Positions 11,328-42,315 of a stretch of 44,641 nt of DNA are shown one piece after another. Made by a program: the position numbers and the translations under genes. Each line of letters opens with the position of its first letter. The stretch's first letter is position 1. Origin of the DNA: Candidatus Agathobaculum merdavium (lineage in GTDB: Bacteria; Bacillota; Clostridia; Oscillospirales; Butyricicoccaceae); assembly GCA_019115615.1 (NCBI GenBank), contig DXDE01000053.1, positions 1 to 44,641 on the forward strand, written 5' to 3'. The notes below the pieces were generated by a model that saw only the letters and a list, made by a program, of their open reading frames with translations, was not told the origin of the DNA and did no database searches.

Positions 11328-11651
11328 CTTCTTCCGGGTGAGATTCACCCGGAGACCAAAAGGTGCCTGCCATTTTCTCCGGCAGGAGAATAGGGAAAGG
11401 GGTGCAAATCCCCTGCGGTCCCGCCGCTGTAAAGGAAGAGCGCGCCGCCGAATACGTCACTGGGGCATGCCCCGGGAAGACCGGCTGCACGTGAGGACGC
11501 CTGAGCCAGAATACCTGCCTTTTGGGATGGAAGCGCATACGGCTACGAGCGATGGCCGGTTGTGCGTCAGCCCGGCTCTCCGGCAAGGGGAGAGGCGGGC
11601 GCTTCGCGCCGGCCTGATGCGTGGGAAGCATCAGTGCACGGCGTATTTTTG
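11328..11651 (+). promoter_or_regulatory. cobalamin riboswitch with transcription-terminator expression platform
   Basis: Core AATAGGGAAAGGGGTGCAAATCCCCTGCGGTCCCGCCGCTGTAA, GTCACTGGGGCATGCCCCGGGAAGACCGG, GCCTGAGCCAGAATACCTGCC; closing pairing AAAAGG/CCTTTT. Downstream terminator hairpin 11607-11643 then TATTTTT. Located upstream of cbiM. Confidence 0.95.
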
Positions 11652-38774: not shown

Positions 38775-39749
38775 ATGCAAATCGGGAACGTAACGCTTGC
38801 CGGACGTATGGTGCTCGCGCCGATGGCCGGCGTGACCGACCGTGCTTTCCGGCAGATCTGCCGCGAACACGGCGCAGCGCTGACCGTGACCGAAATGGTC
38901 TCCGCCAAGGCGCTGACGTATGGCGACAAGAAAACGCCGAAGCTGTTGTCACTGGCCGAAAACGAGCATCCGGCCGCGGCGCAGATATTCGGACACGAGC
39001 CGGAAACCATGGCCGAAGGTGCGAAGATTGCGCGCGAGGTATCCGGCTGCGATATTATCGACATCAATATGGGCTGCCCTGCGCCCAAAATCGCGGGCAA
39101 CGGCGACGGCTCCGCGCTCATGCGCGATCCTGCGCTTGCCGCACGCGTGATTGAGGCGGTCGCCCGCGCGGTCGATGTGCCGGTAACCGTCAAGTTCCGC
39201 AAGGGCTGGGACGAAAAAAGCGTTAACTGTGTCGACTTTGCCCGCATGGCCGAGCAGGCCGGCGCGGCGGCGATCGCGGTGCATGGACGCACACGCGCGC
39301 AGCAGTACAGCGGCAACGCGGACTGGGATGCGATCGCCGCGGTCAAGCAGGCGGTGTCTATTCCGGTGATCGCCAACGGCGACGTTGCCGTCCCGGAGGA
39401 CGCAGTGCGCATTTTGGAGCATACCGGTGCGGATGCGGTCATGGTGGGGCGTGGTGCACTGGGTGACCCGTGGATTTTCGAGCGCGCAAACACCCTGCTG
39501 GAGACCGGTGTGTGCCCGCCGCTGCCGCCTTTTGCGCAGCGCATTGATACGGCGGTGCGCCAGATCGAACTGGCGGCAGAGCAAAAGGGCGAGCGCGTGG
39601 CGATGCTGGAAGCGCGCCGCCACGTGAACTGGTACCTCAAAGGACAAAGCGGCCTGAAGGCCTTTAAAATGCGTATCTGCGCGCTCGAGCGGTTGGAGGA
39701 GCTGTATCCGCTGGCCGAGGAACTCAAGCGTGCAGCGAAAAACGGATAA
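38775..39749 (+). CDS. dusB: tRNA dihydrouridine synthase DusB
   Basis: RMVLAPMAGVTDRAFRQICREHGAALTVTEMVSAKAL, DIIDINMGCPAPKIAGNGDGSALMRDP, VHGRTRAQQYSG, VMVGRGALGDPWIFE. Confidence 0.96.
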   Translation: MQIGNVTLAGRMVLAPMAGVTDRAFRQICREHGAALTVTEMVSAKALTYGDKKTPKLLSLAENEHPAAAQIFGHEPETMAEGAKIAREVSGCDIIDINMGCPAPKIAGNGDGSALMRDPALAARVIEAVARAVDVPVTVKFRKGWDEKSVNCVDFARMAEQAGAAAIAVHGRTRAQQYSGNADWDAIAAVKQAVSIPVIANGDVAVPEDAVRILEHTGADAVMVGRGALGDPWIFERANTLLETGVCPPLPPFAQRIDTAVRQIELAAEQKGERVAMLEARRHVNWYLKGQSGLKAFKMRICALERLEELYPLAEELKRAAKNG

Positions 39750-39774
39750 CGACAGCGAAAGGGGGGAACAGACG

Positions 39775-40380
39775 GTGGACGAAAAGCATATCCTGACACG
39801 GGCGCGCCGCGGCGACGTGGATGCGTTCGAGGAACTGGTGCGGTTGTACGAAAAGCGCGTCTATGCGGTCGCGCTGCGATCTTCCGGCTGCCCCGAGGAC
39901 GCAGCCGATATCGTGCAGGAGGTCTTTCTGCGCGCATGGCGGTCGATCGAGTCCTTCCGCGGGGACAGCGGCTTTTCCACTTGGCTGTTCCGCATTACTA
40001 TGAACCTGTGCGTGGATCACGCACGGCATAAGCATGCCCAGCCGCAGACCCAGCCCATTGTCGTGGGTGAGGAGGAGACTGAGCGCCCGATACGGGATAC
40101 CGCGCCCACGCCGGAGGAGCATCTGGATAATCGCGAACTGGGGCGTGAGCTGGCGGCAGCTTTGGAAGAAATCAGCGAGGAACACCGCCGCATCGTGCTG
40201 CTGCGCGACGTGTCCGGCCTGAGCTATACCGAAATCGCGGAGATTCTGGAGATCAGCGAGGGGACGGTCAAGTCCCGCCTGTCACGCGCACGCATCGCGC
40301 TGCGCAAGGTTTTGCTGCGCAGAGGGAACCTTTTGCTGTCCGCCGCGTCTAACCAATTGAAAGGAGGCGGGGACGCATGA
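39775..40380 (+). CDS. RNA polymerase sigma-70 family, ECF-type sigma factor
   Basis: Sigma2: AFEELVRLYEKRVYAVALRSSGCPEDAADIVQEVFLRAWRSIESFRGDSGFSTWLFRITMNLCVDHAR. Sigma4: EEHRRIVLLRDVSGLSYTEIAEILEISEGTVKSRLSRARIALRK. GTG 39775 with SD AGGGGGG; alternative ATG 39730. Confidence 0.93.
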   Translation: MDEKHILTRARRGDVDAFEELVRLYEKRVYAVALRSSGCPEDAADIVQEVFLRAWRSIESFRGDSGFSTWLFRITMNLCVDHARHKHAQPQTQPIVVGEEETERPIRDTAPTPEEHLDNRELGRELAAALEEISEEHRRIVLLRDVSGLSYTEIAEILEISEGTVKSRLSRARIALRKVLLRRGNLLLSAASNQLKGGGDA

Positions 40381-41378
40381 GTGATGAAGAATATTTTGAG
40401 CAGCTGGTCTCGAGCAGTCTGGATGGTACGCTGACCGAGTCTGAGCGCGAAAAGCTGGACGCCCATCTGGCAGAGTGCCCCTCGTGCGCCGCGCTGAAAC
40501 AGGATCTCGAGCAGATGCGGGCATTATTTGCCGCTGAGGCTGAACTGCCCGCTGGATTGCATGATAGTATCATGCAGCGCGTCCGGCAGGAGGAACGGCT
40601 GCGCGTGGTGCAGCCGGAAAAACCGGTGCGCCGGCTGCCGGTGCTGACGATGGTGGCTGCGGCCGCGGTCGTGGTGTTGGTTGTGCTCGGCGGCGGGCTG
40701 ATGCCTGCGTTCAGCACGGTCAGCAGCACAAACGCTGCGGATACGGCTACCGCGGATGCTGGCGCTGGTTCGGACGGCGCCGGACAAATGATTCGCAGCG
40801 CGGCAGAGGACGCAGGATTGGCTGGCGGCGGCGAAGAAGCTGCTGCCGCAGAAGAGTCTGGTCAGCCGGAGAATGGGGCGGTTCAGCCCCGGGTGACCGC
40901 ACCGGAAGAGTCGGACGGCAGCACGGCCGGGCAGTCCGGCGGCACGCAAGCCTCTGGCGGAGAGACAACGGATGCGGCGGCCGATGGATCGGCTGCTGAC
41001 GGTCAAAGCAAGGTGTGGGCGGGCTTGCAGCCCGGCACGCAGGCGGAAACCGGGGACAGCGGACAGAATGCGCACCCGGAAGCTACGCTGGCAGACGCAT
41101 TGCCGTCCATTACGATTCCGGATGCGCTGCGCGGCAGCCACGTTGCGCACAGCTATCTGGCGACCGGCGGCGCGGAAATGCCTGACATCAACGGCGATCT
41201 GTTGTATACGGGCGACGGCGTGTCGTGGTTTTCGCTGGAAAACAGCATGACCACCCTGCAGGAAACCTTGCAGACGCTCGAAAACGCGGGCTTTACCGTG
41301 ACGACTTTGGATGAGGTTGGCCTGATTCTGGACAGCAAGGCGACAACATGGCTGCTGGCTGTGGCGACCGGCGTCTGA
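40377..41378 (+). CDS. anti-sigma factor with N-terminal zinc finger (zf-HC2-like), one TM helix and extracytoplasmic domain
   Basis: LDAHLAECPSCAAL (HxxxCxxC), VLTMVAAAAVVVLVVLGGGLMPAF TM helix; start overlaps ECF sigma stop. Confidence 0.87.
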   Translation: MSDEEYFEQLVSSSLDGTLTESEREKLDAHLAECPSCAALKQDLEQMRALFAAEAELPAGLHDSIMQRVRQEERLRVVQPEKPVRRLPVLTMVAAAAVVVLVVLGGGLMPAFSTVSSTNAADTATADAGAGSDGAGQMIRSAAEDAGLAGGGEEAAAAEESGQPENGAVQPRVTAPEESDGSTAGQSGGTQASGGETTDAAADGSAADGQSKVWAGLQPGTQAETGDSGQNAHPEATLADALPSITIPDALRGSHVAHSYLATGGAEMPDINGDLLYTGDGVSWFSLENSMTTLQETLQTLENAGFTVTTLDEVGLILDSKATTWLLAVATGV

Positions 41379-41393
41379 TAAAAGCGAGCAGAG

Positions 41394-41429
41394 CGGCCCG
41401 GGGACCGTGGGTTTCCGGGCTGTCGTTTT
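41394..41429 (+). terminator. probable terminator after anti-sigma gene
   Basis: GCCCGG...CCGGGC stem followed by TGTCGTTTTG. Confidence 0.6.
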
Positions 41430-41486
41430 GCCCAAAGAAAGTTTGGAAGAACACACAAAATTTTTGCAGAAAATTTGTGTAAACGC

Positions 41487-41515
41487 TTGACTTTGGGGGA
41501 TGCTTGTAGTAATCT
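41487..41515 (+). promoter_or_regulatory. sigma-A promoter upstream of structured RNA and rpsJ
   Basis: TTGACT (41487-41492), 17-bp spacer, TAATCT (41510-41515). Confidence 0.82.
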
Positions 41516-41519
41516 ATAA

Positions 41520-41779
41520 AGGCACCTGCGAAAAGCAGGAAAACGCGATGATGCCGGAGATTGCTGCCCCGTGCAGGTAACTTCGGCGGAGTAGGTCCGA
41601 CAATCGGGCGGTTGAGATAACTGCTATCAGCCGGGAAGCTGCGCTTTCTGGCAAAAACGCAATGTTCGTGCGTAAATTCGGGACTCGCGGCGCGTGCGCC
41701 GCCAAGCCGATAGCCTGAACCACTTGTGTTTCTTATTGTGACCGGATCGTTACACTATCAGTGTGCCCGGTTATTTTCA
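41520..41779 (+). ncRNA. structured RNA of unassigned class (standalone ncRNA or S10-operon leader)
   Basis: Begins right after a sigma-A promoter. Hairpins: CCTGC/GCAGG; CCGGAG/CTTCGG with inner TTGC-TGC/GCA-GTAA; CGGTT-GATA/TATC-AGCCG; ACGCA/TGCGT; GCGGCG/CGCCGC. Closed by a terminator-like ACCGG...CACTATCAGTG...CCGGT-TATTTT. No credible ORF on either strand with an identifiable product. Confidence 0.7.
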
Positions 41780-41879
41780 TGCCCGCATGTGATACACACG
41801 GCGGGGTTGCAGTTTCTCTCCGTAGCGAGTCAAAACATTATTTAATGTATGGCACACATACGAGGAGGAAAAAACCACC

Positions 41880-42191
41880 ATGGCAAACGCACAGAAGATT
41901 CGCATTCGCCTCAAGGCGTACGACCACGAGCTGATCGACCAGTCCGCGGAGAAGATCATCGAGACCGCTAAGCGCAACGGCGCGAAGGTTTCCGGCCCGA
42001 TCCCGCTGCCGACCGAGAAGCAGATCGTTACCATCCTGCGCGCGGTACACAAGTACAAGGATTCCCGCGAGCAGTTCGAGCGCCGTACCCACAAGCGCCT
42101 GATCGATATCATCAACCCGAATCAGGCCACCATCGAGGCGCTGACCACCCTCGACCTGCCGGCAGGCGTCGAGTTCGAGGTCAAGCTCTAA
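41880..42191 (+). CDS. rpsJ: 30S ribosomal protein S10
   Basis: [58 protein letters not shown]. Confidence 0.98.
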
Positions 42192-42315
42192 TTTCTGTCA
42201 ACAGGCAGACGGCTTAACCCGACCGGCTGCTTGAAGCCCTGCCGCGACACGCGCGGCGAGGTCATGTTGGCGGCCAAATGCCGTCAACCAATAACCTTTA
42301 AGGAGGAAAAACACT

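Follow-up and report, generated by a model that had tools for sequence, protein, structure and literature searches.

Between a promoter and rpsJ, the window (the whole 44,641-nt stretch of DNA analysed here) holds a non-coding region rich in hairpins. A preliminary description had presented it as a highly structured RNA of about 240 nt and of unrecognised class, either an abundant standalone RNA or a leader of the S10 operon. Which of the two is it, how far does the conserved RNA extend, and how might it act on the genes that follow? The largest cluster of ribosomal-protein genes is the one headed by the S10 leader.

Identity and extent of the RNA

All features described below lie on the forward (+) strand, and coordinates are positions in the window. 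rpsJ (ribosomal protein S10, 103 aa; 41880–42191) is the first gene of the S10 cluster; it was assigned from the ORFs and from the recognition of rpsJ by sequence in relatives, and the ORFs of the window read as rplC, rplD, rplW, and rplB after it. The 500 nt 5' of rpsJ are non-coding. The previously described promoter, TTGACT-N17-TAATCT, is present at 41487–41515 and is kept in same-genus leaders; transcription presumably starts near 41522. An invariant Shine-Dalgarno sequence, AGGAGG, is located at 41863–41868. Directly 5' of the S10 operon, the sequence of 39730–41378 appears to encode a sigma-factor-like protein and, adjacently, an anti-sigma-like membrane protein.

A cmscan search against Rfam 15 gave a single match in the region, to the S10-Clostridia leader RF03136 (41540–41603; 36.9 bits, gathering cut-off 35.1), and no other Rfam match up to E = 5 in 41300–42300. 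RF03136 matches were found in 77/87 genomes of the window's family, 247/297 of its order, and 89/219 of a phylum sample, and also in the Bacillus subtilis and Lactococcus lactis controls. Because the match exceeds the gathering cut-off and the same leader stands 5' of rpsJ in most relatives, the RNA is a cis-acting S10 leader of a known class rather than a standalone RNA, and the designation as an unrecognised class is not tenable. The leader occurs in one copy per genome, except in one MAG with two. In this same-genus MAG (G017), the two rpsJ leaders lie on contigs C141 and C215, which reflects either a mixed bin or a true second copy. Elsewhere in the window, a cobalamin riboswitch (120.8 bits) is located at 11344–11536 on the + strand.

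In 21 same-genus leaders, the sequence is near-invariant from the promoter through the start codon, and the conserved leader spans about 41523–41879. The extent of about 240 nt was thus too small, as conservation reaches the rpsJ start at 41880, and the catalogued motif covers no more than the first fifth of the conserved leader. The preliminary description had also stated that a strong match to a known family whose role is assigned would make the RNA non-novel; such a match covers the 5' 64 nt and does not cover the remaining ~280 nt.

An RNA that is abundant and standalone, about 240 nt long and processed or terminated at the terminator-like hairpin P9 (described below), would account for the strong promoter and the terminator-like end that bracket about 250 nt. 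However, conservation and the pairing of the long-range helix P4 continue past P9 to the start codon, and the leader is always linked to rpsJ. Because it always stands 5' of rpsJ and its conservation reaches the Shine-Dalgarno sequence, we regard a standalone RNA as very improbable; of the two original readings, the S10-operon leader is the better one.

Conserved structure and the core

The folding energy of 41519–41779 is −100.5 kcal/mol compared with −88.6 kcal/mol in dinucleotide shuffles (z = −2.26). Covariation was counted in 47 leaders from six genera for a structure of 66 pairs, including crossing ones. In this alignment, 90.3% of cells are paired, and two-sided changes occur in 22 pairs compared with 15.4 in shuffles (0/500 shuffles as high). 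The covariation score is 0.149, against 0.090 for shuffled and at most 0.059 for slid controls. Support is strongest for P2, P8, the inner part of P9, and a single pair of P10; P3 and P7 show no variation in this set. The fold and the conserved, covarying structure bear out the description of a highly structured non-coding RNA, and the comparison of relatives that it had proposed is positive. All of the hairpins that it had listed are in the sequence, and CCTGC/GCAGG, CCGGAG/CTTCGG with its inner stem, ACGCA/TGCGT, and GCGGCG/CGCCGC are present with compensatory changes in relatives. The terminator-like ACCGG..CCGGT-TATTTT is likewise conserved, with covariation in its inner stem. The remaining hairpin, CGGTT..GATA/TATC..AGCCG near 41609–41633, is not a conserved element; GGTTGAGA.AACTGC pairs instead with GCAGTTTCTCTCC, 190 nt downstream.

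The 5' hairpin P1 (CCTGC/GCAGG, 41523–41539) shows compensatory changes between genera and is absent in some; in the counted set, its segment 41525–41539 aligns poorly and has a low score, with 44% paired. It is followed by GCGATGA (41545–41551), which is near-universal in the leader alignments, and by the core stem P2 (41553–41587), which has a conserved asymmetric interior and a variable apical loop. P2 is paired in 100% of cells, with two-sided changes in 5 pairs. The core is therefore a covarying stem with conserved GCGATGA and GGAG..TTGC, as expected of RF03136. A first RNAalifold run paired GCGATGA with TCATGC 3' of the U-tract, but both sides are near-invariant, and a cleaner alignment drops this pairing and shows P4.

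P3, a GTCCGA/TCGGGC hairpin (41595–41609), is invariant in near relatives and covaries phylum-wide, where variants such as GTCTA/TAGGC, GCCTG/CAGGC, and GTCTT/AAGGC keep complementarity. In the window, the terminal GUC/GAC stem of the RF03136 model could form only around a 1-nt loop; the adjoining register, GTCCGA/TCGGGC of P3, is supported instead.

A long-range helix encloses most of the leader

RNAalifold analysis of the 47 leaders paired 41610–41624 (GGTTGAGATAACTGC) with 41809–41821 (the 3' strand identified above), and we designated this helix P4. It is invariant in those 47 leaders, but in other genera and clostridial families its strands change together, with many compensatory changes: GAGAGATC/GATCTCTC in L047, GGACTT/AAGTCC in L066, GCGACTTTAAGAC/GTCTTAAGTCGC in L210, GACACGGGGAA/TTCCCCTGTC in L218, GGAAAAT/ATTTTCC in L124, and ATTCTGCC/GGCAGAAT in L026. 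When partner strands were exchanged between non-redundant leaders, native pairs were more stable than swapped ones both in 53 other Clostridia (−13.5 versus −10.5 kcal/mol; 0/20000 permutations, p < 5e-5) and in 16 leaders of the window's family (−18.7 versus −15.5 kcal/mol; p = 5e-5). A crude rule was used to locate the strands, and part of the tested leaders lack a good P4; therefore, the helix is common, but not proven universal.

Because P4 begins directly 3' of P3 and ends directly 3' of a conserved segment, element iv (GATACACACGGCGGGGTT, 41789–41808), it closes a domain that holds everything between. The enclosed parts are a family-specific insert, the P9 hairpin with its U-rich tract, and element iv, a short ACRC-NCGG motif that was traced by an 8-mer search and includes the small hairpin P10 (GTG-ATA-CAC, 41789–41797), whose middle pair is U-A, C-G, or U-G. 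The P4 3' strand is slightly better than shuffles in complementarity to the Shine-Dalgarno sequence (63% versus 38%), and an anti-Shine-Dalgarno role, being only weakly above shuffles, was not retained.

The insert specific to the window's family

Following the optional hairpin P5 (41630–41652), which is present in the window's genus and missing from several sister genera, the insert contains P6, P7, and P8. P6 (ACGCA/TGCGT, 41657–41673) is paired in 73% of cells, with two-sided changes in 2 pairs, and encloses the P7 5' strand in its loop. P7 pairs GTTC (41664–41667) with GAAC (41717–41720); it is invariant in the near clade, and its complementarity is kept across 14 genera, where native strands gave −6.4 kcal/mol compared with −5.3 kcal/mol for swapped partners (permutation p = 0.005). 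Because the P7 5' strand lies within the P6 loop, P6 and P7 either form a pseudoknot or are mutually exclusive pairings; a pseudoknot is likely. P8 (41687–41702, within 41678–41710) shows two-sided changes in 5/6 pairs and is confined to the window's family. It is flanked by GGGACT (41680–41685) and AAGCC (41704–41708), and these flanks (GGRACU and AAGCC) are invariant in the family.

A covariance model of this middle domain (R1), trained on 32 leaders from six genera, recovered 26/27 leaders of the remaining genera at full length. Outside the window's family, neither pattern search nor R1 found the domain, apart from P3-sized pieces. In 60 relatives, R1 gave one match per genome (two in one MAG), at the rpsJ leader only.

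A covarying hairpin surrounded by conserved unpaired nucleotides, together with a likely pseudoknot, in one family only, is what might be expected if P6, P7, P8, and the invariant GGRACU/AAGCC formed a small-molecule riboswitch domain that was inserted into this family's S10 leader. We consider this highly unlikely, as the domain is found only before rpsJ, no Rfam riboswitch matched at E up to 5, and ribosomal-protein leaders do not need a metabolite. In eight Oscillospiraceae-like leaders (L032, L033, L036, L039, L047, L066, L082, and L097), another conserved insert, approximately GCGTAKATCGCC, replaces P6–P8. It is located between P3 and the terminator-like hairpin and thus represents a second lineage-specific insert within P4.

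The terminator-like hairpin and the region before rpsJ

P9, the terminator-like hairpin with its U-rich tail TTATTTTC, is located at 41739–41779 and is supported by enrichment against shuffles and by its covarying inner stem. A hairpin followed by a U-tract occurs in 82% of leaders of the window's family compared with 22% of shuffles, and in 74% of other clostridial leaders compared with 14% of shuffles. This is a 4–5 fold enrichment, at a constant place of about −105. The tract in the window is weak and interrupted, and a simple terminator scan gives no call. Inspection of the leader alignment revealed no conserved segment complementary to the arms of P9 that could serve as a competing antiterminator. 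Two small hairpins, P11 (41836–41847) and P12 (41848–41860), are located directly 5' of the Shine-Dalgarno sequence; P12 shows U-A to C-G changes, and P11 is mostly invariant.

In most leaders, the U-tract is followed by an ATG, which raised the question of an upstream reading frame that controls rpsJ through translation coupling. Among 67 leaders, however, its frame relative to rpsJ and its stop positions vary, and no Shine-Dalgarno sequence precedes the ATG. The mixed frames refute such an ORF, and we give this explanation virtually no weight.

Possible mode of action

Protein binding, termination, and switching are inferred for this leader. The leader is probably autoregulatory, with a ribosomal protein encoded in the operon binding the core and the P4 domain and acting on both transcription (at P9) and translation. 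In such a scheme, excess S10-operon protein would bind the core and the P4 domain and lower expression. The core-bound protein would first favour termination at P9. In any transcript that extends past P9, it would act on the ribosome binding site directly 3' of P4. RNA polymerase must pass P9 before it transcribes the 3' strand of P4, so P4 and element iv could act only on read-through transcripts, in which they may set translation.

A leader that acts on translation alone, in which P9 is structural and does not function as a terminator, and the protein does no more than block ribosome binding, is unlikely, but several features agree with it. P3 ends a few nucleotides 5' of AGGAGG in short leaders (84–103 nt) and in Bacilli, and the interrupted U-tract of the window escapes the simple terminator scan. 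The position of P3 directly against the Shine-Dalgarno sequence in short leaders suggests that a block of translation is the ancestral mode. In the window, however, P3 lies 250 nt from the Shine-Dalgarno sequence, and 74–82% of clostridial leaders carry the hairpin with its U-tract at a constant position, an enrichment over shuffles. In Clostridia, the interval separating P3 from rpsJ has grown and contains a terminator-like hairpin.

Some leaders mimic rRNA only in structure. A comparison of the core, P3, P8, and element iv against the 16S and 23S rRNA of a same-genus genome revealed no sequence mimicry better than in shuffles.

Relation to known S10 leaders

RF03136 is an established S10 leader of Firmicutes, to which members in Clostridia were added with no further discussion (Eckert and Weinberg 2020, PMC7247131). 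The leader of the window resembles it in the core stem P2, the GCGATGA motif, the place before rpsJ, and a score over the gathering cut-off. The model, however, comprises 81 positions and ends at P3, without P4, P6–P8, P9, and element iv. The full architecture with these parts was not found in Rfam or in the literature examined, which likewise yielded no stated ligand or mechanism for the Firmicutes S10 leader. What is new here is therefore the full architecture of a leader larger than described, and not the class, which is already known. The catalogued family ends at the first 64–81 nt; together with P4, the hairpin with its U-tract, and element iv, it becomes a full structural model with testable switches.

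The rpsJ motif RLC-47-1 is also a candidate ribosomal leader upstream of rpsJ, reported only from three Peptostreptococcaceae genera (PMC11109978). RLC-47-1 may correspond to a portion of the architecture seen here, in another family. In Escherichia coli, the S10 leader is controlled by L4 at the levels of both transcription (an attenuator, with NusA) and translation (reviewed in PMC10931766). The leader of the window resembles it, by description alone, in being long and structured and in its proposed two-level control, and a role of L4 in Firmicutes is not implied. Control of the E. coli leader at both levels makes a two-level scheme plausible, but it is no evidence of membership in the same class.

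Element iv across the phylum

The 8-mer AC[AG]C[ACG]CGG of element iv was scored in 211 distinct leaders, with chance rates of 0.4% for an apical and 1.9% for a downstream position. In Bacilli, it is located inside the apical loop of the core, 24 nt past the core start, in 30/31 leaders and downstream in none. In Clostridia, it is never apical and occurs only downstream, 3' of the terminator-like hairpin, in 59/74 leaders of the window's family and in 39/48 and 24/29 of other clostridial leaders. In the phylum sample, 23/29 leaders, all short (84–103 nt), have neither an apical nor a downstream 8-mer, and the remaining 6, which are long, carry it downstream. An apparent second, upstream copy in L188 and L189 proved to be the promoter −35 box TTGACACGCCCGG.

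In other Clostridia, element iv forms a hairpin, ACRC..GYGU, with a CGG-containing loop, and full pairing is found in 39/62 leaders compared with 5% of shuffles. In the window's family, it pairs instead with an upstream segment (P10). The structural register also differs slightly between Bacilli and Clostridia. The Bacilli leaders (for example, L102 from Bacillus inaquosorum and L048 from Paenibacillus) share the core, P3, and the ACACCCGG element with the leader of the window, but the element is placed in the P2 apical loop, the P4 domain is lacking, and the leaders are 107–128 nt long, with P3 adjoining the Shine-Dalgarno sequence. The Bacilli and clostridial copies of element iv may be related by descent, may have converged on one and the same protein, or may be a chance recurrence of a short word.

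These arrangements can be read as three topologies of one leader, in which the relocation (a permutation) of a recognition module went along with a switch to another expression platform. RF03136 would then describe only the first part, which all three share. The short form would consist of the core with P3 against the Shine-Dalgarno sequence; in Bacilli, the ACACCCGG element would have been grafted onto the apical loop of the core; and in Clostridia, the same element would be brought by P4 from behind the terminator. Because the registers of the two copies differ slightly, we propose this relocation tentatively, with somewhat less than even confidence. With the full model, three natural topologies of one sensor can be compared, and should the Bacilli and clostridial versions of element iv be one and the same, the pair would provide a natural experiment on an RNA module that moves within a leader and stays functional.

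Three leaders with an aberrant core (L067, L078, and L081) have a GACACRCCCGG..GTTGCCAT-like element 5' of the rpsJ promoter, about 370 nt before rpsJ. In two short leaders (L209 and L230), the apical loop of the core contains ACCCGG or GACACGCCAG-like words, and these are perhaps intermediates of the Bacilli arrangement.
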